Shown one piece after another: positions 6,528 to 30,063 of a DNA stretch of 64,000 nucleotides (position 1 is its first letter; every line of letters starts with the position of its first letter). Origin of the DNA: Microvirga terrae (GTDB lineage Bacteria; Pseudomonadota; Alphaproteobacteria; Rhizobiales; Beijerinckiaceae). The translations under genes were made by a program, and so were the position numbers. Location: contig NZ_CP102845.1 of the NCBI RefSeq assembly GCF_013307435.2, positions 3,532,001-3,596,000 on the forward strand, given 5' to 3'. The notes under the pieces were generated by a model. The model was not told where the DNA came from and made no database searches. It saw only the letters and a list, made by a program, of their open reading frames with translations.

Positions 6528-7736
6528 ATGTTTCTCTCCAACAGGCACTCCGACTACCACATGCCGCTCGATCCGGCGGATGCCGAGACCCTGAGCGTGA
6601 AGGCCGCCGAGGACGTCGAGCGGCATCTGCTCCACCGCGCCAACCATGCTCCGACGCCCCTTCGCACACTTCCGATCCTGGCGGCCGAACTCCGCGTGGG
6701 TGCGGTCCATATCAAGGACGAAGGCTTTCGCCTGGGCCTCGGCAGCTTCAAGGCACTCGGCGGATCGTACGCGGTCATCCGGCTCGTGCGGGAGGATGCG
6801 AGCAGGCGGCTCGGACGAGCAGTCGATATCGCCGACCTCCGGTCGGCGGACGTTCGAGCGATCGCGGCCGGCATGACTTTCGCCTGCGCGACGGATGGCA
6901 ACCACGGCCGCTCGGTCGCCCAGGGCGCGCAGCTCGTGGGGGCCAAAGCCGCCATCTTCGTGCATGGCGGCGTCAGCGACGAGCGGGTGGCGGCCATCGC
7001 GCGCTTCGGCGCCGAGATCATCCGGGTCGCTGGCACCTACGACGACTCGGTCGCCGAGGCTGCCCAAGTCGCGGCCGCGCGGAACTGGATTGTCGTGTCG
7101 GATACGTCCTGGCCCGGCTACGAGCGGATCCCTGGGCTGGTCATGCAGGGCTACACGGCCATGGTGCGGGAAGCCCTGCGCCAGCTCCCCCGACCACCGA
7201 CCCATGTCTTTGTGCAGGCCGGTGTCGGCGGCGTCGCTGCCGCCGTAGCGGGACATCTCGCCCTCGTGCTCGGCGACCGGCGGCCGACCTTCGTGGTGGT
7301 CGAGCCCGCGCGGGCTGCCTGTCTGCTGGAGACTGCCAGGGCGGGACGACCGGTCAAGATCGAGCATGGCGAGCCGACCGTCATGGCGATGCTCGAATGC
7401 TACGAGCCGTCCCTCGTCGCTTGGCGCGTGCTTCGTCGCGTGGCGGATGCCTTCATGACCGTCGACGAGGATGACGCCGTCGGGGCGATGAGGCGCCTTG
7501 CCCGCCCTGCCGGAAGCGATCCGGCCATCGTGGCCGGCGAGAGCGGCGGAGTGGGCCTGGCCGGCCTCGTCTGCGCGGCGGCCGATCCAGGGAGCAGGGT
7601 AGCACTTGGCCTCGATGAGGCGTCCCGCGTGTTCCTCATCAACACCGAAGGGGCCACCGATCCGGAGCGCTACGCCGATTTGGTCGGGATGCCGCCTGAC
7701 GACGTGGCAACCACCACCAAGGGAGCAGATGCGTGA
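6528..7736 (+). CDS. dpaL: Diaminopropionate ammonia-lyase (YgeX/DpaL family, PLP-dependent)
   Basis: A 402-residue fold-type II PLP enzyme. The Schiff-base lysine is in GLGSFKALGG (Lys75) and the family motif ATDGNHGRSVA is at about 121-131; GAGVGG-type phosphate loop is seen as QAGVGGVAAAV. Known members split 2,3-diaminopropionate into pyruvate and two ammonia. The ATG at 6528 gives the usual family length; an earlier in-frame start at 6363 would run over the divergent regulator. The stop overlaps the GTG start of the next gene (GTGA), so a carbamoylase-type M20 hydrolase is made in a coupled fashion. Threonine dehydratase-like activity is the main alternative, but the DGNHGR motif favours the diaminopropionate enzyme. 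Confidence 0.87.
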   Translation: MFLSNRHSDYHMPLDPADAETLSVKAAEDVERHLLHRANHAPTPLRTLPILAAELRVGAVHIKDEGFRLGLGSFKALGGSYAVIRLVREDASRRLGRAVDIADLRSADVRAIAAGMTFACATDGNHGRSVAQGAQLVGAKAAIFVHGGVSDERVAAIARFGAEIIRVAGTYDDSVAEAAQVAAARNWIVVSDTSWPGYERIPGLVMQGYTAMVREALRQLPRPPTHVFVQAGVGGVAAAVAGHLALVLGDRRPTFVVVEPARAACLLETARAGRPVKIEHGEPTVMAMLECYEPSLVAWRVLRRVADAFMTVDEDDAVGAMRRLARPAGSDPAIVAGESGGVGLAGLVCAAADPGSRVALGLDEASRVFLINTEGATDPERYADLVGMPPDDVATTTKGADA

Positions 7737-8968
7737 CACCACTTTCCATCAACGCGGAGCGACTGCTCGGACGTCTGCGGGATCTCGGGCAGATCGGTCG
7801 AGACGATGATGGCCGGCTTGTGCGGCTCGCCGCCTCCGATGCCGACAGAGCCGGCCGCGACGCCCTCGTCGCCTGGATCCGCGCCGCAGGATTGGAGGTC
7901 GTCGTCGACCGCATCGGCAACATCTTCGGGATCTGGAGCAACGACGCGAATGCGGAGCAGGCTCCCGCCCTGCTCGGTTCGCATATCGACACCGTCATCG
8001 ACGCGGGCATCTATGACGGTTGCTACGGCGTCCTGTCCGGGCTCGAAGTTATCGAAACCCTGAAGGCTGCCGGGTACGCCCCGACGCGGCCGATCGCGGT
8101 CGCCGCGTTCACGAACGAGGAAGGCGTGCGCTACGCGCCCGACATGATGGGCTCGCTCGTTCATGCGGGCGGCCTCTCCGTCGACGAAGCGCTGGCGACG
8201 ATCGGCACCGACGGTACTGTTCTCGGGGCCGAGCTGGAGCGGATCGGCTATGCCGGCACCGAGGAGCCCGGCTTCCTCAGGCCGTACGCCTATGTCGAGC
8301 TGCACATCGAACAGGCATCCGTTCTGGAACGCGAGGGCGTGTCCGTCGGCGCGGTCGAGAACCTCCAGGGCATCTCCTGGCAGCGCATCACCATCGAGGG
8401 CGAGGCCAACCATGCCGGAACGACGCCGATGGCGATGCGCCGGGACGCAGGCCACGCGGCGGCGTGCGTGGTCACATTTCTGCGCGATCGGGCCCTCAAC
8501 GCGAACTCGCCCACCGTCGCGACGGTGGGCTGCATGAGCTTCGAGCCGAATGCGATCAACGTCATTCCCTCCCGCGCCATCTTCACGGTCGACCTGCGCG
8601 ATCCCGACGGGGAGCGGCTCCGGACCGAGGAAGCCGCTCTTGCCGACTACCTGAAGGAGTTGGCCGCCTCCGAAGAGGTCACGATTGCGGTGGACAGGTT
8701 GGCGCGGTTCGAGCCCGTGACCTTCGATCGGAACATCGTAGCCCTGATCGAGGGTGCTGCCCGGGAACGCGGTCTGGCCGTGAAGCGCATGACATCGGGC
8801 GCCGGCCACGACGCCCAGATGATCGCCCGGATCGCGCCGGCGGCGATGATCTTCGTGCCGAGCATCGGCGGCATCAGTCACAATCCCCGCGAGCACACCC
8901 CGGACGCCGATCTCGTCGCGGGCGCCAACATCCTGCTCGACGTGGTCGCCCGCCTCGCAGCCCGGTAA
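7733..8968 (+). CDS. M20-family Zn hydrolase, N-carbamoyl-L-amino-acid hydrolase / allantoate amidohydrolase type
   Basis: A 411-residue binuclear metal hydrolase of the hydantoinase/carbamoylase branch. Metal ligands are visible in LLGSHIDTV (His84, Asp86 context), DAGIYDGCYGVLSG (Asp95), TNEEGVRYAP (Glu129-130), YVELHIEQ (His191) and ISHNPREHTPD near the C-terminus; GEANHAGTTPM marks the dimerisation and substrate lid. Family enzymes remove carbamoyl groups from N-carbamoyl amino acids or open allantoate. Start is GTG at 7733, overlapping the dpaL stop. Placed between dpaL and an M20D hydrolase, a natural role would be to strip ureido groups from a diaminopropionate derivative; this is inferred. 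Confidence 0.85.
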   Translation: MTPLSINAERLLGRLRDLGQIGRDDDGRLVRLAASDADRAGRDALVAWIRAAGLEVVVDRIGNIFGIWSNDANAEQAPALLGSHIDTVIDAGIYDGCYGVLSGLEVIETLKAAGYAPTRPIAVAAFTNEEGVRYAPDMMGSLVHAGGLSVDEALATIGTDGTVLGAELERIGYAGTEEPGFLRPYAYVELHIEQASVLEREGVSVGAVENLQGISWQRITIEGEANHAGTTPMAMRRDAGHAAACVVTFLRDRALNANSPTVATVGCMSFEPNAINVIPSRAIFTVDLRDPDGERLRTEEAALADYLKELAASEEVTIAVDRLARFEPVTFDRNIVALIEGAARERGLAVKRMTSGAGHDAQMIARIAPAAMIFVPSIGGISHNPREHTPDADLVAGANILLDVVARLAAR

Positions 8969-8978
8969 GGAGAACCCC

Positions 8979-10139
8979 ATGGCCCTGGATCTGGATGCCC
9001 TCCAACGGGAGATGACCGCCTGGCGGCGTGACCTGCACGCTCATCCGGAATTCGGCTTCGAGGAAAAGCGAACGAGCGCCTTCGTGGCCGCGAAACTGCG
9101 CGAATTCGGTCTCGACGACGTCGCCGAGGGTATCGGCGGAACAGGTGTCGTCGGCACGCTGACGCGAGGCAGCGGCAATCGGGCGATCGCCCTTCGGGCC
9201 GATTTGGACGCGCTGCGCATCACGGAGCAGAACGCTTGCGACTATCGTTCCCAGAACCTCGGTATCATGCATGCCTGCGGCCATGACGGCCACACCGCCA
9301 TGCTGCTGGGGGCGGCGAAGCTCCTGGCCGAGGATGGCGGCTTCGACGGCACCGTGCGTTTCGTCTTCCAGCCCGCCGAGGAATGGGGCAAGGGAGCGCT
9401 CGCCATGCTGGCCGACGGATTGATGGAGCGGTTCCCGTTCGAGGAGATCTACGGTCTGCACAACATGCCGGGTCTGCCGGTCGGGCATTTCCAGACGCGC
9501 CCGGGGCCGATCATGTCGGCGGAGGACAATTTCGAGATCGTTCTCAAGGGCGTCGGCGGACATGCCGCCCGCCCGCACTGGGGCAGCGAGGTGCTGGTCG
9601 CCGCCTGCGCCACCGTCATGAACCTCCAGACCATCGTGTCGCGCCGCCTCAGCCCGACCGATGTCGGCGTCGTATCGGTGACCGAGCTCACCACGGACGG
9701 TACCCGCAATGCCCTGCCTGGGCTCGCACGCATCCTGGGCGACGCCCGCAGTTTCCGGCCCGAGATCAGCGCCGGGATCGAGAAGCAGATGCGCGTCATC
9801 GCGGAGGGTACGGCGCTGACCTACAACGTCGCCGCCGAGGTGACCTACACGCGTGAATTCGTGCCGACTCTGAACGATGCGGCCCTGGTGGACGAAGCCT
9901 TCGCGGCCGCGCGAACCGTGTTCGAACACGACCATGTCGCAACGGCGCGCGAGCCCATGACCGGCTCCGAGGACTTCGCCCGCTTCCTCGAACATGTGCC
10001 CGGATGCTTCGCCTTCATCGGCAACGGCGAGAGTTCCGCGCCCCTGCACAATCCGGCCTACGACTTCAACGACGAGGGGCTGCTCTTCGGCGCGCGTTTC
10101 CACGCTGCGATCGCCCGAAAGCGTCTCCCGTCGGCCTGA
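8979..10139 (+). CDS. M20D amidohydrolase (hippurate / N-acyl amino acid hydrolase family)
   Basis: A 386-residue enzyme with the hallmark RDLHAHPE (residues 17-24), metal-binding MHACGHDGHTAML (Cys100, His102), QPAEEW, and a C-terminal TGSEDFARFL motif. Members hydrolyse N-acyl amino acids such as hippurate or indole-acetyl conjugates. An AAGGAGA ribosome site lies a few bases before ATG 8979 and only 10 bases separate it from the preceding carbamoylase, so it is the third gene of the dpaL operon. The substrate is unknown; an N-acylated diaminopropionate or related amide would fit the operon. Confidence 0.87.
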   Translation: MALDLDALQREMTAWRRDLHAHPEFGFEEKRTSAFVAAKLREFGLDDVAEGIGGTGVVGTLTRGSGNRAIALRADLDALRITEQNACDYRSQNLGIMHACGHDGHTAMLLGAAKLLAEDGGFDGTVRFVFQPAEEWGKGALAMLADGLMERFPFEEIYGLHNMPGLPVGHFQTRPGPIMSAEDNFEIVLKGVGGHAARPHWGSEVLVAACATVMNLQTIVSRRLSPTDVGVVSVTELTTDGTRNALPGLARILGDARSFRPEISAGIEKQMRVIAEGTALTYNVAAEVTYTREFVPTLNDAALVDEAFAAARTVFEHDHVATAREPMTGSEDFARFLEHVPGCFAFIGNGESSAPLHNPAYDFNDEGLLFGARFHAAIARKRLPSA

Positions 10140-10197: not shown

Positions 10198-11388
10198 TCA
10201 CGGTGCCTCGAACAATGCGACGCCGTCGCGAGCGATGACCTTTCCGCCCTTCAGCACCATCCTGCGCGGACGGCGGCTGACGACGGCATCTGCCAGAGTC
10301 TCACCCTCGACGAGAACGAGATCGGCTCTGTCGCCGGTGTTGAGACCGTAATCGTCCAGGCCCATCATCCGCGCACCGCCATGGGTACATGTGTCGAGCG
10401 CCAGCGCCACCTCGTCGTCGCGCCGGAGATTGTTGCGCAAGCCCACGAGCACGGCGCGCTCCAGCATGTCCGGGTTGTTGTAGGGGCCCCAGGTATCGCG
10501 CACGCCGTCGGTGCCCGCCGCGACGACGATGCCCGCTTCCACCAGACGCTTGACCGCAGGGGCTGGTCTCGAGGCGGGCGCCGTGGTCAGGATGTGGATC
10601 CGAGCCTCGGCCAGGGCGTCGATCAGCGCCGCGACGTAGTCCTGATCGGCCATGCCGAGGCAGAAGGCGTGGCTGATCGTAACCTTCCCCTGCAGACCCA
10701 GCGCCTTCGTGCGCTCGATGATGAGCTCCATGGAAAACGCCCCCAGCTCCGCCGGTTCATGGAGATGGATGTCGACCGGCACGCCATGGCGCTCGGCGAG
10801 CCCGAACACGGCGTCGAGATGCCCCTTCGGGTCGCGGTCGATGGCTGCCGGATCGAGACCTCCGACCACTTGGGCGCCAAGCTGAAGGGCTCTGTCCATG
10901 AGTTCGACCGTGCCGGGCCGGATGAGCATGCCGCTCTGCGGGAATGCGACGAGTTCGATGTCGATCATGTCGCGGTAGCGCTCCCGCGTCTCGAGAACGC
11001 CTTCGATGCCCGCGACGCCAACCTCGGTGTCCACGTCGACGTGGGTCCGGATATGGGTCGTTCCGAGGGAGGCGGCGAGCACGGCCTGCCGGGCCGACTG
11101 GCGGGCCGGATCGATTCCGAGAACCCGACGTTGCATCCGCTCGTTCTCGATCTTGTCGATCAGGCGCGGTCCGACCTCGTTGCGGTACCAGCCCATCCCG
11201 AGGAGCGTCTTGTCCATGTGGGTATGAGCCTCCACGAGGCCCGGGATCATGATCGCCCCGCCCCCGTCCAGGGTCTCCGCGCCGCCCTCGACCTCTTGTC
11301 CGTAACCGGCAATCCGCCCCTCGCGGATCATCACCGAGGTCGCCTCTCCGCCCATCGGGCGCACGTTGCGGATCACCAGGGTATGCAT
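10198..11388 (-). CDS. Cytosine-deaminase-like amidohydrolase
   Basis: A 396-residue amidohydrolase superfamily member of the CodA branch. The metal-binding pair is in EAHTHMDKT (His55, His57), followed by VDIHLHEP (about 205-212), a SHAFCLG segment (about 238-244) and the catalytic aspartate in AAGTDGVRDTWG (about 300). The HTHMDKT plus DTWGPYNN signature is typical of cytosine, isocytosine and creatinine deaminase-like proteins. It is divergent from the GntR regulator gene, and a palindromic operator candidate lies between. GAGG six bases before the ATG supports the start. Exact substrate unknown. Confidence 0.8.
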   Translation of the reverse strand: MHTLVIRNVRPMGGEATSVMIREGRIAGYGQEVEGGAETLDGGGAIMIPGLVEAHTHMDKTLLGMGWYRNEVGPRLIDKIENERMQRRVLGIDPARQSARQAVLAASLGTTHIRTHVDVDTEVGVAGIEGVLETRERYRDMIDIELVAFPQSGMLIRPGTVELMDRALQLGAQVVGGLDPAAIDRDPKGHLDAVFGLAERHGVPVDIHLHEPAELGAFSMELIIERTKALGLQGKVTISHAFCLGMADQDYVAALIDALAEARIHILTTAPASRPAPAVKRLVEAGIVVAAGTDGVRDTWGPYNNPDMLERAVLVGLRNNLRRDDEVALALDTCTHGGARMMGLDDYGLNTGDRADLVLVEGETLADAVVSRRPRRMVLKGGKVIARDGVALFEAP

Positions 11389-11455
11389 CAGCAGCCTCGC
11401 TTCTTACGTCTGTTTCCATCCGGCATTGGCCAAGGGCCTTGCCGGTTCGTCTACT

Positions 11456-11477
11456 TTGTATACAATGTTGAATACAG
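11456..11477. promoter_or_regulatory. Candidate GntR operator, TTGTATACAA plus degenerate second copy
   Basis: TTGTATACAA (11456-11465) is a perfect 10-base palindrome; TTGAATACAG follows at 11468-11477 with 8 of 10 matches, one helical turn away. The site lies in the divergent gap between the cytosine-deaminase-like gene and the FCD-type GntR gene. The same word recurs at 12409 and 12431, upstream of the importer operon, which supports a shared regulator. Confidence 0.6.
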
Positions 11478-11564
11478 AATGCCAACAAAAACTCCTCTTC
11501 CTGCGCGGGGAGTTTTGTGGAACATAGTTCGTCCTTAGTCCTTCGAGTTGCCCAGCACGCCGTC

Positions 11565-12272
11565 ATGAACGCACCGGTCAGAAAGCCAAAATCAGCCACC
11601 GGCACCCGAAGCGAGTCCGTCTATGCCGGGCTTCGCCGCGCGATCATCGAGCAGGCCCTGATGCCGGGCGACAAGCTGACCGAGGATCTGATCGGCGACC
11701 GGTTCGGCGTCAGCCGGACGATCGTCAGAACCGCCCTGGCCCGCCTCCATGCCGAGGGTCTCGTCGACATGCAGCCGAACAAGGGGGCTACCATCGCTCA
11801 GCCGAGCCTGTCGGAAGCCCACGACGTCTTCGAGGCGAGAATGTGCCTTGAGCGTCAAGTTCTTGTTCGGCTTGCGAAAAAGGTGACGGATCAGGATATC
11901 GAGCAATTGCAGCAGCATGTGGCGCTCGAGGCCAAGGCCAATGCGCATGACGGCCCCGCGGCAATCCGTCTGGCGGGAGAGTTCCACATTCTGCTGGCCT
12001 CCCTCTCCGGCAACGGCGTCCTTGCGCGCTATGTGGACGAAGTGGTGTCGCGCTGCTCGCTGATCCTAGCCCTCTACGGCAGGCCGCATTCCTCGGATTG
12101 CTCCATCAACGAGCACCAGCAGATCATCGACGCGCTCCGGACGGGCAACAGCCAGGCTGCTGCCGATGCGATGGAGCACCATCTCAAGGCGGTGACCGAC
12201 AGGGCGCTGCTGTCCTCGAACTCCGACCGGCACCGCGACATCCGGTCCATTCTGGACCGCTACGCGTCCTGA
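11565..12272 (+). CDS. GntR family transcriptional regulator, FadR/FCD type
   Basis: A 235-residue regulator: winged helix-turn-helix (about residues 17-78, with DRFGVSRTIVRTALARL as recognition helix) and an FCD effector domain whose metal-binding histidines are visible in GEFHILLASL, NEHQQIIDAL and MEHHLKAV. An earlier ATG at 11517 would add 16 residues; the one at 11565 fits the family better. It sits between a divergent amidohydrolase and a downstream importer/aminohydrolase operon and probably controls both through TTGTATNCAA sites. The effector is likely a carboxylated or amino-acid-like pathway intermediate. Confidence 0.88.
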   Translation: MNAPVRKPKSATGTRSESVYAGLRRAIIEQALMPGDKLTEDLIGDRFGVSRTIVRTALARLHAEGLVDMQPNKGATIAQPSLSEAHDVFEARMCLERQVLVRLAKKVTDQDIEQLQQHVALEAKANAHDGPAAIRLAGEFHILLASLSGNGVLARYVDEVVSRCSLILALYGRPHSSDCSINEHQQIIDALRTGNSQAAADAMEHHLKAVTDRALLSSNSDRHRDIRSILDRYAS

Positions 12273-12408
12273 CGTCGGCCTGCCGGTTCTCAGCCGATCC
12301 CATAGACATTGGAAAACCTTCGCCGCTTGGTCACTGAGCCGGGCCTGCCTGCATTTGCGCCTGCGGGTGGTGAATATTCGGTCAAGAGCAGAATTGACGC
12401 CCTCATTT

Positions 12409-12440
12409 TTGTATGCAAATTTCGACTCCATTGTATCCAA
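12409..12440. promoter_or_regulatory. Paired GntR operator candidates upstream of the oligopeptide-type importer
   Basis: TTGTATGCAA (12409-12418) and TTGTATCCAA (12431-12440) are spaced 22 bases apart, two helical turns, and each differs by one base from the palindrome at 11456. They lie 37-68 bases before the ATG at 12477, over or just downstream of the expected promoter, which would suit repression. Confidence 0.6.
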
Positions 12441-12476
12441 TAAAGAATCCATTCCAGAGGATCTGTGGAGGCCGAA

Positions 12477-14042
12477 ATGAACACCAGACTCGCTGCCAGC
12501 CTGACGATCGCCGGCGTCCTGATCGGGATGCCGGCAGAGGCCAAGACCCTGCGGTGGGCCTCGCCCACGGACATCACCACACTCGATCCCTACGCCCATA
12601 CGGAGAGCTTCACCACGAGCATGCTCCACCACGTCTTCGACCCGCTGGTGCGCCGCGGCCGCACGCTCGAGCTTGAACCGGCCCTGGCGGTAAGCTGGAA
12701 GACCGTGAAGCCGGACACCTGGCGCTTTGAGCTGCGCCGGAACGTGAAATTCCACAACGGGAACCCATTCACGGCGGACGACGTGGTGGCCTCGATCAGC
12801 CGCATCCTCGATCCCGGAGCCCGGGCCCGCGGCAACCTGGCGACCGTGGTCAGGGCGGAAAAGGTCGACGACTTCACGGTCGACATCGTCACGCAGGGAC
12901 CCTATCCGCTTCTCCTCAACGATCTCGCCGGCATCTACATCCTCGACAAGGAATGGATGGAGGCCAACGGCGCCCTGAAGCCCGGCAACATCGCGACCGG
13001 CGTCACGACGGCCGCATCGACCACCGCCGTCGGCACCGGGCCGTTCAAGGTGGAATCGTACAAGCCGGACGCTGGCACGACCTTCGTGGTCAACCCGGAC
13101 TGGTGGGACAAGCCCCAGCACAACCTCACCCGCATCGAGTTCAAGCCGGTGAAGTCGGACGCAACCCGAGTCGCGGCTCTCCTGTCGGGTGAACTCGACC
13201 TGATCGCCCCGGCGCCGCTCCAGGATCTCCAGCGGATCTCCGCATCTCCGGGCTTCAAGGTCATCGAGGAGCCGTCGCTCCGCCTGATCATGCTCTCGCT
13301 CAATGTCCGTCCCGAGCTGAAGGCCATGCCGGGCCAGAAGAACCCGCTGCTCGACGTCAAGGTGCGTCAGGCCATGTGGCATGCCATTGATCTCGAGACG
13401 ATCAAGAAGCGGGTTATGCGCGACAAGTCGCGGACGACCGGAACGCTCGTCGCACCGCCGGTCCCGGGCTACGCGAAGGAGAACGACGTGCCTCTGGCCT
13501 ATGACCAGGCCAAGGCCAAGCAGCTCCTGGCTGAAGCCGGTTATCCAAACGGTTTCAAGACCAAGCTGAACTGCCCGAACGACCGCTACATCAACGACGA
13601 GCAGACCTGCGTGGCGATTGCGTCCATGTGGGCGAAGGTCGGCATCCAGGCGGAACTCCAGACCGAGTCCCGCGCCACCTACTTCCCGCGCCAGGACCGC
13701 GGCGAGTTCGATGTTTCGATGGTGGGCTGGGCAACCTTGCCGCCCATGGACGGCTTCAGCGTGCTCTCGTCCCTGCTCACCGAGCAGAAGGACGGCTATG
13801 GCGGCTCCAACGCGGGCACCTACAGCAATCCCAAGATCGAGGAGCTGACCCGAAAGGCCGCCGTCGAGCTCGACGAGACCAAGCGCCGCGCCATGCTGGC
13901 CGAAGCGCTCAAGGTCGCACGGGACACAGTGGCCTACATCCCGCTCCACCAGCAGCCGCTGGCCTGGGCGGTCCGCGACGGCGTCGACGTTCCGCAGTTC
14001 CCGGACGAGTACGTCCGCCTGTGGTTCGCGACGGTCAAGTGA
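12477..14042 (+). CDS. Oligopeptide-type ABC transporter substrate-binding protein (SBP_bac_5)
   Basis: A 521-residue periplasmic protein with a signal peptide (residues 1-22, ending AEA) and a DppA/OppA-type fold: SPTDITTLDPYAHTES at the start of the mature chain, VKFHNGNPFTADDVVASI around 95-112, and the WHAIDLETIKKRV segment further on. The ATG at 12477 is chosen because GTGGAGG precedes it; an in-frame GTG at 12465 lies inside that site. First gene of an importer operon that runs through both permeases and the fused ATPase. Relatives bind peptides, nickel, opines or glutathione; given the aminohydrolases behind it, a ureide or cyclic amide ligand is possible. Confidence 0.88.
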   Translation: MNTRLAASLTIAGVLIGMPAEAKTLRWASPTDITTLDPYAHTESFTTSMLHHVFDPLVRRGRTLELEPALAVSWKTVKPDTWRFELRRNVKFHNGNPFTADDVVASISRILDPGARARGNLATVVRAEKVDDFTVDIVTQGPYPLLLNDLAGIYILDKEWMEANGALKPGNIATGVTTAASTTAVGTGPFKVESYKPDAGTTFVVNPDWWDKPQHNLTRIEFKPVKSDATRVAALLSGELDLIAPAPLQDLQRISASPGFKVIEEPSLRLIMLSLNVRPELKAMPGQKNPLLDVKVRQAMWHAIDLETIKKRVMRDKSRTTGTLVAPPVPGYAKENDVPLAYDQAKAKQLLAEAGYPNGFKTKLNCPNDRYINDEQTCVAIASMWAKVGIQAELQTESRATYFPRQDRGEFDVSMVGWATLPPMDGFSVLSSLLTEQKDGYGGSNAGTYSNPKIEELTRKAAVELDETKRRAMLAEALKVARDTVAYIPLHQQPLAWAVRDGVDVPQFPDEYVRLWFATVK

Positions 14043-14109
14043 ACCCGCAAGTCAACCCTTTGGAGACGCGCGGCTCGCCTGATCCGGGCGGGCCGCCGGG
14101 GAAGCACCC

Positions 14110-15081
14110 ATGTTCAAAGTCCTCATCTCCCGGCTGGGTCAGGCAGCCCTCGTGATGCTCGTCGTGTCGGCGGTGTCGTTCGTGATGTTCCGCTATGTGG
14201 GCGATCCCGTTGCGACCATGTCGCGCGAGAACGCCTCCGTGGAGGAGAAGGCGGAGCTCCGGCGCTCCCTCGGCCTCGATCAGCCGCTGGTCGTCCAGTA
14301 CGGCCGCTTTCTCGGCCGAACCCTGAGCGGCGACCTGGGCATCAGCTACCGCAATCAACGTCCGGTCACCCAGCTCATTGCCGAGAGGCTTCCCGCGACG
14401 CTGGAGCTGGTGCTGGTCGCGACGGTCCTGTCGCTTGCCCTCGGCATCCCGCTCGGGGTGCTCTGTGCCCTCAGGCCGAACGGCGTTGCCGCGCGGCTCG
14501 TGCAGGCCCTTTCGCTCATCGGGATCTCGACGCCGACCTTCGTGACCGGCATCGTGCTCATTCTGGTCTTCGCCGTGTCTCTGGGCTGGCTGCCCTCCTT
14601 CGGACGCGGCCAGGTGGTCGATCTCGGCTGGTGGTCGACAGGCTTTCTCACGGCAAGCGGCCTCAAGTCTCTTCTGCTCCCCGGTATCACGCTTGCTCTG
14701 TATCAGCTCACTCTCATCATGCGGCTGGTGCGGGCCGAGATGATCGACGTGCTGTCCAGCGACTACATCCGCTTCGCGAAAGCCCGGGGATTGCCTACAC
14801 GATACATTCACTTCCGGCTCGCCCTCCGGAACGCCCTCATGCCCGTCATCACGGTGACGGGCTTGCAGATAGGCTCGCTCATCGCCTTCGCCATCGTGAC
14901 CGAGACGGTCTTCCAATGGCCGGGGATGGGCCTCCTGTTCATCCAGGCTGTGAGTTTCGTCGATATCCCGGTCATGGCCGCCTACCTGCTGTTCGTCGGC
15001 CTGCTCTTCGTCCTCATCAACGCCGTCGTCGATATCCTCTACGCGGTGGTCGATCCCCGCCTGCGCGCGAGGTCCGCATGA
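14110..15081 (+). CDS. Oligopeptide-type ABC transporter permease (DppB family)
   Basis: A 323-residue inner-membrane protein with about six membrane segments and the DppB-type start (VLISRLGQAALVMLVVSAVSF). The ATPase-docking loop is YIRFAKARGLPTRYIHFRLA near 219-238. Its stop overlaps the next start (ATGA), so it is coupled to the DppC-type partner. Confidence 0.9.
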   Translation: MFKVLISRLGQAALVMLVVSAVSFVMFRYVGDPVATMSRENASVEEKAELRRSLGLDQPLVVQYGRFLGRTLSGDLGISYRNQRPVTQLIAERLPATLELVLVATVLSLALGIPLGVLCALRPNGVAARLVQALSLIGISTPTFVTGIVLILVFAVSLGWLPSFGRGQVVDLGWWSTGFLTASGLKSLLLPGITLALYQLTLIMRLVRAEMIDVLSSDYIRFAKARGLPTRYIHFRLALRNALMPVITVTGLQIGSLIAFAIVTETVFQWPGMGLLFIQAVSFVDIPVMAAYLLFVGLLFVLINAVVDILYAVVDPRLRARSA

Positions 15082-19192: not shown

Positions 19193-19261
19193 CGGGCTGA
19201 GTTCGCAAGGATGGTCGAACCGACAAGGCCGGTCATGATCCCGTGACTGGAAGGATGTGTC

Positions 19262-20503: not shown

Positions 20504-20714
20504 ACTTGGTGCTCACGCTGTTGCGGTGCAAAACCTTCGTCGGGGGCGACTTGCGAAATGCGCCGGAGGCCTGCGGGGTGCTCCGCAAAGTCTTTTTTGG
20601 ATCTCGCGTCCACCGTCAACTTATCCTTGCTGATGCCGAATTCGTCAGCGTAGATTGCGAGTCGCAAGAACAGAAAAGCAAGCGATCATCCGGGCACCCT
20701 CGGGGGGAAATCTA

Positions 20715-22175
20715 TTGACCGAATACGATCTGGTCATCAAAGGCGGGCGTGTCGCGTCGACGGAAGGCGTCGCTGCGATGGATGTGGCGATCCAGGATGG
20801 ATTGATCGCTGCCCTCGGCCGTGAGCTTCAGGGCCGGTCGACCATCGATGCCGCCGGCAAGCTGCTCCTTCCCGGCGGCGTGGATGCCCATTGCCATATC
20901 GAGCAGCTTTCGGGCGGCGGGTTGATGAACGCCGACACGTTCGAGTCGGCCACACGATCGGCGGCATTCGGCGGCACGACCACCGTCATATCCTTCGCGG
21001 CGCAACATCGGGGCGACAGGCTGGGTGACGTCGTGGAGAACTACGCGCGTCTGGCCGCGGCCGGGGCGGTGATCGATTACGCCTTCCATCTGTGGATTTC
21101 CGATCCGACCCCCGAAACTCTGGAGCAGGACCTGCCCCGGCTGATCGAGGCCGGACACCGGTCGATCAAGATCTTCATGACCTATGATCGGGTCCGCCTT
21201 CTCGACGAACAGATTCTCGACGTCATGATGGTGGCCCGCAAGTATGGAGCCATGATCTGCGCCCACGCCGAAAATCACGGCATGATCAAGTGGATGGCCG
21301 ACAGGCTGGTAGCCCGCGGATACGTGGCGCCGAAATACCATGGCGTCAGTCATCCGCGGGTCTGCGAGATCGAGGCTTTCGAGCGCCTCATCCGCTTTTC
21401 CCAGCTTCTCGACCAGCCCATCATGCTGTTCCATGTGTCGACGGCCGAGGGTGCCGCGGTCATCCGGCGCGCGCGCGGCGAGGGCATCAAGGTCTTCGCC
21501 GAGACCTGCCCGCAATATCTGTTCCTCACGGCTCAAGACCTCGACCGGCCCGGACTGGAAGGCGCCAAGTGGATGTGTTCCCCGCCTCCCCGCGCCACAT
21601 CGGATCAGGAGGCCTTGTGGCGCGGGCTTGAACTCGGCGACCTCCAGGTGGTTTCCTCCGATCACGCTCCGTACAGGTTCGATGAAAGCGGCAAGCTCGC
21701 CGCCGGCGCCAATCCCGACTTCAAGCAGATCGCGAACGGGCTGCCCGGGCTGGAGACCCGCCTGCCGCTGCTCTTCGACGCCATGGTGAGCCAGGGACGT
21801 TCGAGCCTCGAGAAATTCGTGGAGCTGACCGCGACAGCTCCGGCGAAGATCTACGGGCTTCATCCTCGCAAGGGGGCCATCGCGGTCGGCGCCGATGCGG
21901 ATGTCGTTGTCTGGGATCCGGACCGTGAGGTCGTTCTCACCGACGACGGACTGCACGACAATGTCGGCTACAACCCCTTTGCGGGTCGAAGGCTGAAGGG
22001 CTGGCCGGAGACCGTTCTGCGCCGTGGCGACACGATCCTCGCCGACGGCACGCTCAAGGCTGCTCCCGGATCGGGTCGGCTGCAGCTGCGCGGCTGCGCG
22101 CCCTCCATGCGGCCGACGGGGCGGCTGAGCCCCGAGTTCGATCCGGGCAGCAATTTCGGCGCGCAACTGCTGTGA
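20715..22175 (+). CDS. Hydantoinase/dihydropyrimidinase family cyclic amidohydrolase
   Basis: A 486-residue enzyme of the D-hydantoinase branch. Metal ligands are visible in VDAHCHIEQ (His59, His61), the carbamylated lysine in RSIKIFMTYD (Lys152), His in CAHAENHG and FHVST, and the catalytic aspartate in VSSDHAPY. Start is TTG at 20715: GGGGGGA lies seven bases upstream and the protein then begins TEYDLVIKGGRV, the canonical family start. The C-terminal tail beyond about 450 is extra and proline-rich. The enzyme should open a cyclic ureide or imide to an N-carbamoyl or amide acid, the substrate class of the carbamoylase at 7733. An allantoinase-like activity is possible. Confidence 0.85.
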   Translation: MTEYDLVIKGGRVASTEGVAAMDVAIQDGLIAALGRELQGRSTIDAAGKLLLPGGVDAHCHIEQLSGGGLMNADTFESATRSAAFGGTTTVISFAAQHRGDRLGDVVENYARLAAAGAVIDYAFHLWISDPTPETLEQDLPRLIEAGHRSIKIFMTYDRVRLLDEQILDVMMVARKYGAMICAHAENHGMIKWMADRLVARGYVAPKYHGVSHPRVCEIEAFERLIRFSQLLDQPIMLFHVSTAEGAAVIRRARGEGIKVFAETCPQYLFLTAQDLDRPGLEGAKWMCSPPPRATSDQEALWRGLELGDLQVVSSDHAPYRFDESGKLAAGANPDFKQIANGLPGLETRLPLLFDAMVSQGRSSLEKFVELTATAPAKIYGLHPRKGAIAVGADADVVVWDPDREVVLTDDGLHDNVGYNPFAGRRLKGWPETVLRRGDTILADGTLKAAPGSGRLQLRGCAPSMRPTGRLSPEFDPGSNFGAQLL

Positions 22176-22245
22176 TCGTCCTTTCGAAAGCCTGTCGGCA
22201 CGCTGGCCGCTGCCCCTCAACCCGCTTGCATGGATCCGATCAATC

Positions 22246-23688
22246 ATGACAGACACAATCAAGGTTGTTCGACAGGCCGCCTGGGTCGTCGCCTGGGACG
22301 AGGAGGCCTCGTGCCATGTCTATCGACAAGACGCCGACGTCGCCTTCTCGAGGTCCGGCATCGTGTATATCGGCCCGGCATACTCGGGTCCTGCCGACGA
22401 GGAGATCGCCGGTGAGAGCCTGATGGTGATGCCGGGCCTCGTCAACGTTCATTGCCATTCCGGTGACGAGCCGATTGCCAAGGGCCTGTTCGAGGATGTC
22501 GGAACCGCCGCTCTGTGGGGCAATGCCCTCTATGAGTACTCGGCTCTGATCGATTCGGACGCGGATGCCAAGGCCGCCTGCCAGACGGTGATGCTGGGCG
22601 ACCTGATGCGCAGCGGCGTGACCACCCATCTCGACATCGCATCGCCGCATCCGAAATGGCTCTCGCTTGCGGCGGGGAGCGGATTGCGGGCCTATCTCGC
22701 GCCCGGATTCCGGGAGGCACAATGGCGCATGGCCGGGAGCCATCGTCTCGACTTCGACTGGAACAAGGGCCGAGGTCGCGAGCGCTATGCCGACGCTCTG
22801 GCCTTCGTGGAGGAGGCCCGTGCACATCCCAGCGGCCGTATCGACGGCGTCGTCGCCCCGTCGCAGATCGAAACGTGTTCCGAAGAGCTGCTGCAGATGG
22901 CGGTTGGCGAGGCCCGCAGCCGCGGGCTGCGCATCACCATCCATGCGGCGCAGACCATGGCCGAGCACGAGGAATTGCTGCGGCGGACCGGTGAGACCGC
23001 ACCGAAGATGCTTGAGCGCCTGGGCATTCTCGGCTCTGACCTGATCCTCGGCCATTGCATCTTTCTGGATCACCATTCCTGGACCCGGCAGCGCAGCCGA
23101 GACGACCTCGCGCGCTTGGCCGAGAGCGGCACGTCCGTCGCTCATTGCCCGGTCACCTTCGCGCGCAGCGGCATGACCCTGGAAAGCCTGGGGACCTATC
23201 GTCGTGCGGGCGTCAATGTCGGGCTCGGCACCGACAGCTATCCCTTCAACATGCTGGAGGAAATGCGCGAGGCGCTGATCTGCTCACGCGTCGCCGGCCG
23301 CAGCGTCTTCGATCTCGACACCGGAGGCCTGTTTTCGGCCGCCACGACCGGCGGCGCACGCGCTCTCGGCCGGGACGACATCGGACGTCTTGCCACCGGG
23401 GCCAAGGCGGATTTGTCCCTGGTGGATCTGAGCCATCCGGCCATGCAGCCGGTCTACGATCCGCTGCGCAATCTGATTCATTGCGCGGCGGAGCGCGCCA
23501 TCCGCGACGTCTATGTGGACGGCCAAGCCGTGGTGAAGGACAGATGCATCGTCCATCTCGACTATGACGGCGCGGTGCGGGAACTGCGTGATGCGCAGAA
23601 GCGCGCCTGCCGGCAGGCCGAACGGGACGATCCGCAAGGTCGCTCCCTGTCGGTTCTTGCGCCCTACTCCCTGCCGCTCGCTCGCTGA
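22246..23688 (+). CDS. AtzA/TrzA-type aminohydrolase, paralogue 1
   Basis: A 480-residue amidohydrolase. Metal-binding residues: PGLVNVHCHSGDEP (His69, His71), ITIHAAQTMAEHE, ILGHCIFLDHH and GLGTDSYPFNM. The N-terminal WVVAWDEEASCHVYRQDADV is closely mirrored by WIVAWEEAARSHVYLRNADF in the gene at 24425, so the two are visible paralogues. It follows the hydantoinase by 70 bases and precedes the racemase by 13, so the four form an operon. Substrate unknown; hydrolysis of an amidine or enamine nitrogen on a ring is typical. Confidence 0.82.
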   Translation: MTDTIKVVRQAAWVVAWDEEASCHVYRQDADVAFSRSGIVYIGPAYSGPADEEIAGESLMVMPGLVNVHCHSGDEPIAKGLFEDVGTAALWGNALYEYSALIDSDADAKAACQTVMLGDLMRSGVTTHLDIASPHPKWLSLAAGSGLRAYLAPGFREAQWRMAGSHRLDFDWNKGRGRERYADALAFVEEARAHPSGRIDGVVAPSQIETCSEELLQMAVGEARSRGLRITIHAAQTMAEHEELLRRTGETAPKMLERLGILGSDLILGHCIFLDHHSWTRQRSRDDLARLAESGTSVAHCPVTFARSGMTLESLGTYRRAGVNVGLGTDSYPFNMLEEMREALICSRVAGRSVFDLDTGGLFSAATTGGARALGRDDIGRLATGAKADLSLVDLSHPAMQPVYDPLRNLIHCAAERAIRDVYVDGQAVVKDRCIVHLDYDGAVRELRDAQKRACRQAERDDPQGRSLSVLAPYSLPLAR

Positions 23689-23701
23689 GGATGAGGTCAC
23701 C

Positions 23702-24373
23702 ATGGGATCGCCCGTCTATGTGATCAACCCGAACTCGTCGCAGACCGTCATGGCGGCGATCGACAGAGCCGTGGCTCCTCTGCGCAGCGCCGATGGACCG
23801 GACATCGTGTGCCTGTCCCTGGCCGAAGGACCGCCCGGAATCCAGTCGCAACGCGACGTGGACGGCGTCATCATGCCCATGCTGCGCAAGGCCGCCGAGC
23901 TGGAGGAGGACGCGGGCGCGTTCGTCATCGCGTGCTTCTCGGACCCGGGTCTCCATGCCCTCCGCGAACAGAGCGGGCGCCGCGTCTTCGGAATTGCGGA
24001 ATGCGGCGTGCTGACGGCGCTCACCCTCGGACAGCGGTTCGGCGTCATCGCGATCCTGCCCACATCCATCCCGCGGCACCTTCGCTATTTCGGCGCGATG
24101 GGCGTCCTAGACCGCTTCGCCGCCGACCTGCCGATCGGGCTCGGCGTTGCGGATCTGTCCGAGGAGGATCGGACGCTGGGGCGCATGATCGACGTCGGAA
24201 ACACTCTGAAAACCACCCACGGCGCCGACGTTCTCGTGATGGGGTGCGCCGGCATGGCCCGTTATCGCAGGGCCCTGGAACAGGCTGTCGGGATTCCGAT
24301 CGTCGAACCGACCCAGGCCGCCGTCGCCATGGCAGTCGGTCACGTGCGTCTGTCGGACGCCGTCACGGCGTAA
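23702..24373 (+). CDS. Asp/Glu/hydantoin racemase family protein
   Basis: A 223-residue protein of the hydantoin racemase family. It begins with VINPNSSQTV (NPNS loop, residues 8-17) and carries the two catalytic cysteines in VIACFSDPG (Cys78) and VMGCAGMARY (Cys182). Known members racemise 5-substituted hydantoins or, as maleate/arylmalonate-type relatives, act on acids. ATG 23702 directly follows the end of the aminohydrolase gene with GATGAGG ahead. Its position between two aminohydrolases and after a hydantoinase makes hydantoin racemisation the most economical role. Confidence 0.85.
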   Translation: MGSPVYVINPNSSQTVMAAIDRAVAPLRSADGPDIVCLSLAEGPPGIQSQRDVDGVIMPMLRKAAELEEDAGAFVIACFSDPGLHALREQSGRRVFGIAECGVLTALTLGQRFGVIAILPTSIPRHLRYFGAMGVLDRFAADLPIGLGVADLSEEDRTLGRMIDVGNTLKTTHGADVLVMGCAGMARYRRALEQAVGIPIVEPTQAAVAMAVGHVRLSDAVTA

Positions 24374-24424
24374 ATCTATTCATACCTCCGGTTCAGCCCC
24401 CTCTCTGCCTTCATGGAGCCTGCA

Positions 24425-25873
24425 ATGACCAGCGCCACCAAGACGACCCTCTTCCGGAATTGCGATTGGATCGTCGCCTGGGAGGAGGCTGCCCGATCCC
24501 ATGTCTACCTCAGGAACGCGGATTTCGCGATCCGAGGCAACAACATCGTTCATGTCGGACAGGATTATGCCGGTCCGGTCGACGCCGAGATCGACGCCCG
24601 CAAAATGATGATCATTCCCGGATTCGTGGATGTCCACAGCCATCCCGGACACGAGCCCGGCTGGAAGGGCATGCTCGAGGAACTGGGCAGCCCGCGTCTG
24701 GGTCAGAGCTCGCTCTACGAGTTCATGCCGGTCTTTCAGATCGGCCCGGAATACACGCGCCCGGCGCTGCGTGTCGCGACATCGGAATTGCTGAAGAGCG
24801 GCGTCACGACCATCTGCGACCTCGGTCGCCCGCGGGCGTCCTGGGCCGACGAATATGCCGAGACCGGCATTCGGGCCGTGCTCTGGGGCATGTTCCGGTC
24901 TGGCCCCTGGAAGACCACCAATGGCCACTCGGTCGACTATGATCTCGATCCGGCGACGGGCGACCGGCTCCTGCGCGAGGCGATCGAGATTGCCGATGCC
25001 GCTTCGAAGCACTCGAGCGGGCGCATCACGGGCTTTATCGGCCCGGCCCAGATCGATACCTGCACCGAAGGACAGATCCGCGATGCGCTCGATGCGGCGC
25101 GGGAGCGCGGTCAGCCGATCCAGATCCACGCCGCCCAGAGCGTCGTCGAGTTCCAGGAGATCATGCGGCGCTATGGCTGCACCCCCATCGAATGGCTGGA
25201 CAGGATCGGCGCGCTTGGCCCTGACACGATCATCGGCCACTGCATCTTCCTGAACGATCATCCTTGGCTGCACTGGCCGCACGCCAACGACTTCGAGCGC
25301 CTGCGCGACAGCGGCGCCCAGGTGGCGCATTGCCCTGTGGTTTTCGCCCGGCGCGGCATCGCCCTGAACACCCTGACGCGCTACGTGAAGGCCGGCATCC
25401 GATGCGGGATCGGCACCGACAGCTTCCCGCACAACATGCTCGATGAACTCCGCATGGCCTGTTATGCGGGCCGCATCGTGGGGGGAAGCTTCACGGCGGC
25501 GACGACCCACGACGCGTTCATGGCGGCCACGGCCGTCGGCGCCGACATGATCCGCCGCCCCGATCTGGGCCGCCTAGCGCCCGGCTGCAAGGCCGACTTC
25601 TCCGTCGTTGACATGGCCAATCCCTACATGCAGCCCGACTACGAGCCGGTTCGCAGCCTCGTCTATTCGGCCAATGACAGGGCCATCAAGGACGTCTATG
25701 TGGACGGCCGCCAAGTCGTTCGGGATGGCGAGGTTCTCGACTTCGACATCGATGAGGATCTCGAAATGCTGCGCCGGGGTCAGGCGGAAGCGATTGCGGC
25801 TGCGCCCCAGCGTGACTGGGCCGGACGCGGTCTGGAAGAACTGAGCCCCCGGGTCTTTCCTGTTCGCGGCTGA
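24425..25873 (+). CDS. AtzA/TrzA-type aminohydrolase, paralogue 2
   Basis: A 482-residue amidohydrolase with PGFVDVHSHPGHEP (His71, His73), IQIHAAQSVVEF, IIGHCIFLNDHP and GIGTDSFPHNM. It is a paralogue of the gene at 22246, with the same order of motifs but differences after the first metal site (GWKGMLEELG against IAKGLFEDVG), suggesting a different substrate. ATG 24425 is chosen because GGAG is seven bases ahead; an ATG at 24413 overlaps that site. Last gene of the operon, followed by a strong hairpin terminator. Confidence 0.82.
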   Translation: MTSATKTTLFRNCDWIVAWEEAARSHVYLRNADFAIRGNNIVHVGQDYAGPVDAEIDARKMMIIPGFVDVHSHPGHEPGWKGMLEELGSPRLGQSSLYEFMPVFQIGPEYTRPALRVATSELLKSGVTTICDLGRPRASWADEYAETGIRAVLWGMFRSGPWKTTNGHSVDYDLDPATGDRLLREAIEIADAASKHSSGRITGFIGPAQIDTCTEGQIRDALDAARERGQPIQIHAAQSVVEFQEIMRRYGCTPIEWLDRIGALGPDTIIGHCIFLNDHPWLHWPHANDFERLRDSGAQVAHCPVVFARRGIALNTLTRYVKAGIRCGIGTDSFPHNMLDELRMACYAGRIVGGSFTAATTHDAFMAATAVGADMIRRPDLGRLAPGCKADFSVVDMANPYMQPDYEPVRSLVYSANDRAIKDVYVDGRQVVRDGEVLDFDIDEDLEMLRRGQAEAIAAAPQRDWAGRGLEELSPRVFPVRG

Positions 25874-25905
25874 TCAACCTTGAGCGACGCTCGCAGTATG
25901 AAAAG

Positions 25906-25929
25906 AGGCCCCGGAGATCTCTGGGGCCT
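25906..25929. terminator. Bidirectional intrinsic terminator
   Basis: AGGCCCC (25906-25912) pairs with GGGGCCT (25923-25929) around the self-complementary GAGATCTC; runs of A precede and T follow. It separates the convergent aminohydrolase (24425) and YtcJ-type (25956) genes and could serve both. Confidence 0.8.
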
Positions 25930-25955
25930 TTCGCGTTTCGTCCGATGCGCTGAAA

Positions 25956-27593
25956 TCAGCGGGTGGTCTCGCCATGGCGGTCGAACACGACCTCGCCGCC
26001 GCGGATCGTGAGATCGCACCGGGTATCATGGAGGATATCCTCAGGGGATGCCGTCAGCATGTCGCGTGAGAAGACCGCGATATCCGCCGCAAAGCCTGGG
26101 ACGAGGCGTCCCCATTCATGCTCCGCCTTGTTCACGTAGGCTCCGAATTCCGTGAAGGCCATGATGGCCTGCTCGATCGACACCGTTTCCCGCTCGTCCA
26201 TGACGGTTCCGTGCGATGTCTTGCGGGTCAGCATGGAGAAGAAGTTCGGGAACGGATTGATGTCGCAGACCGGAGCGTCACTGCCGGCCGCAGGCTTGAA
26301 GCCAAGGTCGATCCACGTCCGGAGGGGATAGGACGGTTTCGCGCGCTTTTCGCCGACCACTGAAACATACAGGTCGCCGAAATCATAGATGAACACCGGC
26401 TGCGGCACCGGCTGAACGCCGAGGCGCTTCATTCGGTCGTTCTGATCCGCTCTGGCATAGCCCGCATGCTCGATGCGATGGCGACGATCGGGATCCGGCA
26501 TCGCCTCGAGGGCAAGCTCGAACGCGTTGAGGGTCTGCTCGATGGCGGCGTCGCCGATCGCGTGGACCGCAAGCTGATAGCCCTTGGCATGGTAATCGTG
26601 CACGAGGTCGTTCATCTCGTTGTCGTGCAGAAGCATCAGACCGGTGGTTCGCGGCTCTCCGACATAAGGCTCGCTCATCGCGGCCGTCCGGCCGCCAGCG
26701 CTGCCGTCGGTGAAGATCTTGACCGGTCCGACCCGCAGCATGGAATCCCCCACGCCGGTCACCACGCCATCCGCATAGGCCTGCTCCACGATCCCGCCCG
26801 GCCCTCCAAGCAGGCATTGGGTCGTCCGCACCGGCAGACGACCGAGGCGCTGGGCCGTGCGATAGGCGGCCACCTCGCGGTAGCCCGCCCTCATTCCCAC
26901 GCCTGCATCCATGACGCTGGTGATGCCGTAGGACAGGCAGGCCCGGCCGGCATCGTCGATGGCTTGAACGAGCTCCTGATCGGTCGGCTCCGGCAGCACA
27001 GCCTTGAGGCGATCACGACCGGTCTCGGCCAGCAGGCCGGTCAGCCGACCGTCTCGCTGCTCGATGGCGCCGCCCTGCGGAACGGGCGTCGTCTCGTCGA
27101 TGCCGGCCAATTCGAGCGCCTTCGAATTGCAGATCGTCACATGGCCGCATGCCCTGACAATCGCAACGGGATGTTCGGGCGCCACCGCATCGAGTTCCTC
27201 CCGCAGCGGATGACGTCCGACGTCGAGCTCGAACTGATCGTATCCGCGCCCCTGAATCCAGTGGCCCGGCGGCGTCATTGAGGCGCGCTGCCGCACCTTT
27301 TCGAGCAGGGAAGCAAGGGTCGGGGCGGAAGAGGCACGCACATCCACATGTCCCATGATCACCCCATAGGGGAGAAGATGCATGTGTGAATCGCACAGAC
27401 CGGGCGTTGCGAGGCGTCCGCGAAGGTCGATCACCCGGGTCGCCGGCCCGATGAGAGGCTCCATGTCGGCGGAGGTTCCCGCGGCCAAGACCTGCCCGGC
27501 CCAGAGGGCGATGGCTTCGGTCACCTGTTCTGAGAAACCAAGAAAGACGCGGCCGTTCGTGAGGACGATGTCGGCTTTGGGAAGGATCGGCAT
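25956..27593 (-). CDS. YtcJ-type amidohydrolase (amidohydrolase family 3)
   Basis: A 545-residue enzyme of the YtcJ/N-substituted formamide deformylase group: LCDSHMHLLPYG (His70, His72), the GRGYDQFEL segment, GPVKIFTDGSAGGRT (carboxylated-lysine region), LAVHAIGDAAIEQ and RHRIEHAGY, ending with GSDAPVCDINPF. The ATG at 27593 is used; six more codons back to a TTG have no support. Convergent with the aminohydrolase operon and separated by a shared terminator. The substrate is unknown; N-substituted amides or formamides are known for relatives. A weak GntR-like word lies upstream at 27652. Confidence 0.83.
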   Translation of the reverse strand: MPILPKADIVLTNGRVFLGFSEQVTEAIALWAGQVLAAGTSADMEPLIGPATRVIDLRGRLATPGLCDSHMHLLPYGVIMGHVDVRASSAPTLASLLEKVRQRASMTPPGHWIQGRGYDQFELDVGRHPLREELDAVAPEHPVAIVRACGHVTICNSKALELAGIDETTPVPQGGAIEQRDGRLTGLLAETGRDRLKAVLPEPTDQELVQAIDDAGRACLSYGITSVMDAGVGMRAGYREVAAYRTAQRLGRLPVRTTQCLLGGPGGIVEQAYADGVVTGVGDSMLRVGPVKIFTDGSAGGRTAAMSEPYVGEPRTTGLMLLHDNEMNDLVHDYHAKGYQLAVHAIGDAAIEQTLNAFELALEAMPDPDRRHRIEHAGYARADQNDRMKRLGVQPVPQPVFIYDFGDLYVSVVGEKRAKPSYPLRTWIDLGFKPAAGSDAPVCDINPFPNFFSMLTRKTSHGTVMDERETVSIEQAIMAFTEFGAYVNKAEHEWGRLVPGFAADIAVFSRDMLTASPEDILHDTRCDLTIRGGEVVFDRHGETTR

Positions 27594-30060: not shown

Positions 30061-30063
30061 GCT

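Follow-up and report, generated by a model that had tools for sequence, protein, structure and literature searches.

Does the dense set of nitrogen-metabolism genes around dpaL, the gene for 2,3-diaminopropionate ammonia-lyase, in Microvirga terrae encode one catabolic route or several? These genes lie in a stretch of 64,000 nucleotides of the 6.1-Mb host genome (contig NZ_CP102845.1, positions 3,532,001 to 3,596,000), hereafter the window, to which all coordinates refer. A preliminary description had listed, within 21 kb, DpaL, a carbamoylase-type M20 enzyme, an M20D hydrolase, a cytosine-deaminase-like enzyme, three AtzA/TrzA/SsnA-type aminohydrolases, a hydantoinase, a hydantoin racemase and a YtcJ-type amidohydrolase, and had read them as a single pathway ending in DpaL. 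Pfam and NCBIfam searches of the window proteins confirm every gene type named, each at the position given for it. What these genes form is three separately inherited modules that lie side by side in few Microvirga genomes: module A (lrp<->dpaL-carbamoylase-M20D, 5936-10139), module B (codA-like-gntR-opp-atzA-like-cynX, 10198-20503) and module C (hydantoinase-trz-racemase-trz-ytcJ-aapJQM-oxidase, 20655-32563). The single-route reading is unsupported because dpaL loci show no such linkage, the modules are distributed independently, and the conserved site before dpaL is unique in the window. We think it likely that dpaL belongs to a unit of four genes with its own divergent regulator, which strips N-carbamoyl and N-acyl groups off diaminopropionate derivatives and cleaves the product.

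The unit starts with an Lrp/AsnC-type regulator gene (5936-6541, minus strand) that is divergent from dpaL and goes with it, a correction to the preliminary description; its product scores 77.3 bits against the NCBIfam Lrp model, below the cut-off of 233. The open reading frame begins at a TTG codon, and its true start probably lies near 6418 because annotated relatives have about 160 amino acids; the annotated Rhizobium lrp gene measures 483 bp. The product of dpaL (6528-7736, plus strand) reaches 505.9 bits against the equivalog PRK08206.1 (cut-off 276) and does not reach the second diaminopropionate ammonia-lyase equivalog, TIGR03528 (316.5 versus 532). A longer open reading frame begins at 6363, but 6528 is the sensible start, since near relatives share a methionine there and the conserved site upstream reaches to 6496. 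Alignment to DAPAL chain 4d9g places the catalytic residues at K130, D178 and D247 (numbered from 6363), for which we take the counterparts in the Escherichia coli enzyme to be the pyridoxal phosphate lysine K77 and the two catalytic aspartates D120 and D189. K130 and D178 are kept in 140 of 140 homologous stretches and D247 in 135.

Two M20 hydrolase genes follow on the same strand. The carbamoylase gene (7733-8968) overlaps dpaL by 4 bp (7733/7736) and encodes a hydantoinase/carbamoylase-family amidase (TIGR01879, 390.6 bits, cut-off 204) whose PDB relatives include 8c46 and 3n5f and whose scores lie at 260-306 bits for several subfamilies that are characterised or have a solved structure. 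The M20D amidohydrolase/aminoacylase (8979-10139; TIGR01891, 335 bits, cut-off 153.75) has as PDB relatives YxeP 1ysj, the IAA-amino acid hydrolase 1xmb and 6slf. In both proteins we looked for the motifs that we presume to form the metal site (in M20D a Cys/His/Glu motif). All the residues are present in the carbamoylase (H84, D95, E129, E130, H191, H359 and H383), where they are mostly conserved among relatives, with H84 in 80 of 84 and tyrosine instead in three, and M20D likewise has C100, H102, E134, E135, H161 and H357. The stop/start overlaps in module A, both in Rhizobium and at 7733/7736 in the window, suggest a single transcript.

The same grouping recurs well beyond the genus. A profile built from eight DpaL sequences was run against named genomes, and the best 80 of at least 588 confirmed loci were kept, most of them with 10 kb on each side; they come from Rhizobium, Mesorhizobium, Sinorhizobium/Ensifer, Bosea, Shinella, Aminobacter, Bradyrhizobium, Microvirga, Reyranella, Komagataeibacter and others. 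Lrp is a neighbour in 72 of these 80 loci, M20D in 58 (59 at a looser cut-off) and the carbamoylase in 50, and when the 1252 open frames of these stretches were clustered at 45% identity or more, no further gene family exceeded 14 loci. Hydantoinase, racemase, YtcJ and CynX have no match in any of the 80, and codA-, AtzA- and trz-like genes occur in only one (L154, with codA-like 32% and AtzA-like 30% identical). Within 4.5 kb of dpaL and at 60% identity or more, 46 loci have both hydrolases, 4 the carbamoylase only and 12 M20D only. Gene order varies, as in Ensifer (L159-L161), where it is dpaL-M20D-carbamoylase. In five Mesorhizobium operons (L124, L137, L140, L153, L158) the carbamoylase gene is flanked by two copies of dpaL. 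Fifteen more distant loci, taken from 45 other genomes matching in a class-wide search, represent other families at about 50% DpaL identity, and the dpaL-carbamoylase pair persists in two of them (L096, L102).

Module A is found on both chromosomes and megaplasmids of rhizobia and their kin. Among 72,556 plasmid records, 80 carry dpaL at E <=1e-100, and 66 of these belong to Rhizobium, Sinorhizobium or Ensifer. Three dpaL plasmids were inspected, from R. leguminosarum WSM1325, Rhizobium sp. Pop5 and Shinella PSBB067, and in these the genes overlap and are annotated as Lrp, diaminopropionate ammonia-lyase, Zn-dependent hydrolase and M20 aminoacylase. Among the open-licence papers listed, no title or abstract opening describes a dpaL-carbamoylase-M20D operon, and the available excerpts of PMC8407117 and PMC4417242 mention dpaL in gene lists only.

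A conserved operator/promoter site precedes dpaL. Across 104 lrp-dpaL gaps (92 distinct sequences) a strong footprint reads GAAACAAACTTGCA - AGCGC - TTTTCG - TGCAATAT, and in 67 of the gaps TTGCR and TGCAATA occur exactly and at the same spacing. In the window the 50-bp site, TTGCR-N18-AGCGC-N15-TGCAATA, matches once, exactly, at 6447-6496 on the plus strand; no second match with up to three mismatches was found anywhere in the window, where 0.2 such matches are expected. Among 48 Microvirga genomes, the site stands at dpaL in all 24 that have module A, in 23 with at most one mismatch and in the last (G018) with two. Among the 24 genomes without the module, only G015 has a one-mismatch match, and many of the 48 carry this sequence with two mismatches. 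Matches with two mismatches are near background (99 in the 48 genomes versus 43 for a backward control pattern). Two further matches, each with two mismatches, lie in the host genome; one falls within a sequence found again in many genomes, some without module A among them. An extra exact match lies at the start of a contig (G026:C478). Judged by these matches, the conserved site is a mark of dpaL, and the searches of the window and the 48 genomes gave no sign of a regulon spanning modules B or C.

The distribution of the modules within the genus is equally informative. Module A was scored by dpaL at 75% identity or more, module B by a codA-like and AtzA-like pair on one contig, and module C by its marker trz3 (24413-25873) at 85% identity or more. 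By these definitions 24 of the 48 genomes have module A, 25 module B and 26 module C, so that each recurs in about half of these congeneric genomes, more than chance. Their combinations follow expectation: A and B occur together in 13 genomes (12.5 expected; Fisher p 1.0), A and C in 14 (13.0 expected; p 0.77), and B and C in 16 (13.5 expected; p 0.25). Left out of these counts were G030 for module A (DpaL 50% identical, at L091 without another module-A gene), G035 and G068 for module B (one marker only, or both weak), and G022, G027, G063 and G070 for module C (relatives at 50% identity or less only, although G022 does carry trz2 at 81%). All three modules occur in nine genomes, and by gene positions they are contiguous in only three (G000, G009 and G065); A and B alone adjoin in G020 and B and C alone in G025, and in G026, where module A sits on a 3.6-kb contig, A-B adjacency cannot be judged. 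The single pathway fails the test that the preliminary description set for it, conserved linkage in relatives. Module A itself holds together, as the 25 Microvirga DpaL loci (24 genomes) are accompanied by Lrp in 23 cases, the carbamoylase in 22 and M20D in 20.

How might the dpaL unit work? The gene content, conservation, synteny, promoter site and catalytic motifs described above, all read from sequence, are consistent with the following scheme, in which we infer the substrates, the parallel action, the inducer and the protein that binds the site. The carbamoylase would convert an N-carbamoyl (ureido) derivative of 2,3-diaminopropionate, with albizziine (3-ureido-2-aminopropionate) as the best guess, to 2,3-diaminopropionate, CO2 and ammonia, and M20D would produce the same compound from an N-acyl derivative of the N-acetyl or N-oxalyl type. 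DpaL would then cleave 2,3-diaminopropionate to pyruvate and two ammonia. The preliminary description was sound in proposing that the two hydrolases remove ureido or acyl groups ahead of DpaL, and both recur in an operon with dpaL. They probably act in parallel, as two entry points feeding one lyase, because they are lost separately, while action in series would predict joint loss. The divergent Lrp-type protein may bind the site at 6447-6496 and would there sense the substrate or diaminopropionate.

Albizziine occurs in legumes, and N-acetyl- and N-oxalyl-diaminopropionate occur in legume seeds. Since albizziine is 2-amino-N-carbamoyl-beta-alanine, its cleavage by the carbamoylase would be chemically simple, by analogy with beta-ureidopropionase. 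The earlier suggestion of albizziine as an alternative substrate fits the dpaL-carbamoylase-M20D operon best, and albizziine-type legume amino acids are plausible but unproven as substrates. A narrower version, in which the unit is a regulated cassette for legume-type N-substituted 2,3-diaminopropionates, comprising two interchangeable M20 hydrolases, one lyase, an Lrp-type regulator and a three-part operator, is only tentatively put forward, as a possibility that we would not call likely.

Several observations weigh against a dedicated dpaL-hydrolase unit. Neither hydrolase lies within 4.5 kb of dpaL in 18 of the 80 best loci, and 13 of the 15 distant loci have no carbamoylase match. One close dpaL locus comes from Komagataeibacter, which is not known as a nodule symbiont. 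Family membership of the carbamoylase does not fix alpha versus beta ureido specificity, and no dedicated transporter gene lies within the operon. Within Microvirga, nodA is present in 8 of the 48 genomes, and module A in five of the eight with nodA and 19 of the 40 without; a symbiosis link of module A was considered and dropped, there being no clear association with nodA in these small numbers. Moreover, module A adjoins module B in 4 of the 13 genomes with both, and the three modules are contiguous in 3 of the 9 that have them all, more often than expected of modules placed at random; a loose functional or historical link may therefore exist, and the A-B adjacency hints at one with module B.

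If the modules did cooperate, the aminohydrolases would deaminate a ring, the hydantoinase would open it, the carbamoylase and M20D would deprotect the product, and DpaL would finish the route. Such a scheme has in its favour that all the genes lie within 21 kb, that A, B and C are contiguous in three genomes, and that the published uric acid route, in the available part of PMC12507026, uses SsnA, HyuA, an M20 enzyme and YgeX in that logic. The missing hydantoinase and racemase in the 80 best dpaL loci and the independence of the modules in the 48 genomes speak against feeding of DpaL by these enzymes, as do the separate regulators of modules A and B, the unrepeated dpaL site, and the host's lack of any YgfK, YgeW or YgeY match that exceeds its cut-off, and we regard the scheme as the least probable of the readings considered here. 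Hardly credible, too, is a carbamoylase that serves as a nitrogen scavenger of the allantoate/ureidoglycine type, with DpaL acting mainly as a serine/threonine-type deaminase and the pairing a regulatory convenience. The top NCBIfam names of the carbamoylase are indeed allantoate-amidohydrolase subfamilies, one of them just exceeded (PRK09290.1-5, 400.4 versus 399), but the protein falls below the cut-off of its best-scoring subfamily model (425.9 versus 452) and far below that of the AllC equivalog (288 versus 598), and DpaL for its part passes the cut-off of a diaminopropionate equivalog, with the aligned catalytic residues intact.

One further account deserves more weight, although we still consider it unlikely: the operon might recover the 2,3-diaminopropionate of peptides, siderophores or antibiotics, and both M20 hydrolases would then be loosely specific aminoacylases. 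M20D does resemble aminoacylases, and a peptide-type ATP-binding cassette (ABC) importer lies near dpaL in 6 of 16 more distant loci (L091, L096, L098, L099, L102, L105). The carbamoylase, however, scores above the hydantoinase/carbamoylase family cut-off and recurs beside dpaL.

Among the closest known parallels to module A is the end of the reductive uric acid pathway of E. coli and C. difficile, in which, according to the available part of PMC12507026, YgeY and YgeX convert albizziin to pyruvate in vitro; the excerpt of PMC4016543 gives a hyuA/ygeW/ygeY/ssnA context in E. coli, without ygeX. Both systems combine an M20 hydrolase with DpaL/YgeX. The hydrolases differ, being a hydantoinase/carbamoylase-family M20 enzyme and M20D in module A: for YgeY, with its cut-off of 321, M20D reaches only 30 bits, and YgeY is not among the matches listed for the carbamoylase. 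In addition, module A is a stand-alone operon with an Lrp-type regulator. In the host genome the best scores are 196.7 for YgfK (cut-off 835.3), 30.1 for YgeW (cut-off 500) and 107.4 for YgeY (cut-off 321), each cut-off being exceeded in one of 14 control genomes. Since none of the three exceeds its cut-off, the host lacks this pathway in the form known from E. coli, a statement that covers these proteins and not XdhD or UacX, which were not searched. An SsnA-type identity did not hold up either: against TIGR03314 (cut-off 455.5) the three AtzA/SsnA-type window proteins score 133.8, 90.2 and 104.8, the search being limited to the window. A HyuA-type D-hydantoinase is present in the window (TIGR02033, 568.5 versus 393), but in a module independent of dpaL. 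Amidohydro_3, the family to which a UacY-type enzyme would belong, is matched by several window proteins, most strongly by the YtcJ-type one.

Other relatives share single elements with module A. DoeB/DoeB2 of the ectoine branch is an N-acetyl-2,4-diaminobutyrate deacetylase, an M20D-type deacylation of an N-acyl diamino acid, and by this general analogy it may be likened to the M20D of module A. M20D scores 320 bits against the DoeB2 model cut-off of 550, and its partner in module A is an ammonia-lyase. N-carbamoyl-beta-alanine amidohydrolase and the L-carbamoylases (8c46, 3n5f) have the family and metal-site residues in common with our carbamoylase, with a different partner gene and probable substrate here. 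Hydantoin utilisation clusters consist of hydantoinase, racemase and carbamoylase; module C has the first two and includes a pair of PRK06151-like hydrolases and aapJQM besides, whereas the carbamoylase lies in another module.

We propose that modules B and C form units of their own, in which amidohydrolases and transporters handle other nitrogen compounds; for a pterin-deaminase reading of the two, the available excerpt of PMC9513972 shows no gene cluster. Module B opens on the minus strand with a cytosine-deaminase-like amidohydrolase (10198-11388; PRK05985, 533 bits, cut-off 408; PDB relative 6nbo). Its other genes are on the plus strand: a GntR/FCD regulator (11517-12272; Pfam FCD and GntR), a peptide-type ABC importer recognised by Pfam (12465-17719, with SBP5 at 12465-14042, permeases at 14110-15081 and 15078-15992, and fused ATPases at 15989-17719), the AtzA-like amidohydrolase (17738-19192; best PDB match 4v1x AtzA) and a CynX/NimT-like major facilitator superfamily transporter (19262-20503; TIGR00896, 316 bits, below the cut-off of 406). 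The codA-like and AtzA-like genes are on opposite strands in 25 of 25 module-B genomes and 6.2-6.6 kb apart in 24 of them (11 kb in one). The importer between them is syntenic in L013 and L018 and partly so in L076 and L077, and a Shinella HZN7 plasmid (L189) carries a related importer, an AtzA-like gene (65%) and a broken-up codA-like match (52%). In the AtzA-like protein the usual HxxE motif is replaced by TQDGHT, and hence its metal site may be altered; TQDGHT is identical in three of four relatives, and the most distant one (about 40%) has VQDGHR. A tRNA-Arg called by ARAGORN at 13383-13479 was judged false, as its position falls within the gene for the solute-binding protein and Rfam gives no match.

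Module C begins on the plus strand with a D-hydantoinase/dihydropyrimidinase (20655-22175; PRK13404, 722 bits, cut-off 647; PDB 1nfg), a PRK06151-like metal-dependent hydrolase with an IHAAQ motif (trz2, 22246-23688; 364 bits, below the cut-off of 416), a member of the Asp/Glu/hydantoin racemase family (23696-24373; PF01177; PDB 3qvj) and a second PRK06151-like hydrolase, the module marker trz3 (24413-25873; 350 bits, below the same 416). A YtcJ-type amidohydrolase follows on the minus strand (25956-27611; PF07969, 384 bits). The module extends past the range first described, to 27785-32563, with aapJQM, parts of a general L-amino-acid ABC transporter (27785-31176, plus strand), and a flavin adenine dinucleotide (FAD)-dependent amino-acid oxidase (31268-32563, minus strand; NCBIfam pipecolate-oxidase-like, 162 bits, below the cut-off of 600). 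No recognised aapP ATPase gene adjoins aapJQM; the oxidase gene follows on the other strand. A second hydantoinase-type gene, 48% identical, is present elsewhere in the host genome.

Twenty module-C loci outside the window were examined, with the hydantoinase in 18, the racemase in 18, trz2 in all 20, dpaL in one and module-B genes in two; 17 include the full upstream stretch, and L019, L021 and L032 are shortened by contig ends. Among 17 downstream stretches, ytcJ and aapJQM are each present in 16 and the oxidase is present in 15. The aapJQM genes of L030 and L031 stand between hydantoinase and trz2, and the substrate of module C is therefore probably amino-acid-like. In G025 (L018) and G002 (L029), trz2 and trz3 adjoin, with no hydantoinase or racemase match in the stretch examined. 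A Sinorhizobium medicae pSymA locus (L193) is a differently built hydantoin-type cluster, in which a trz3 homologue (75%) lies near a second gene of the trz type, a hydantoinase of 40% identity and two genes distantly resembling the carbamoylase. Where 3hpa has HLAE, the two PRK06151-like hydrolases of module C have HAAQ, which suggests chemistry other than classic ring deamination; HAAQS occurs in 93 of 120 Trz3 homologues, and the other 27 did not match the simple search pattern. Of 1499 module-C homologues found, 120 were listed, and among these most are nameless and the rest carry automatic names such as amidohydrolase, 8-oxoguanine deaminase and MTA/SAH deaminase. Outside the three modules, an open reading frame with collagen-like triple-helix repeats (3228-4361) lies downstream of an NMT1-type transporter.

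In summary, clusters of this kind can look like a uric acid route only because separate modules happen to be neighbours, a point to bear in mind when dpaL is annotated in aerobic bacteria. YgeY and YgeX are known to act on albizziin, and in module A other hydrolases would be coupled to the same last step. If the proposed role is correct, the dpaL operon would be a specific pathway by which bacteria use toxic legume amino acids and also ureido-alanine released in purine breakdown, and it would offer a marker operon with a ready promoter site for a biosensor.

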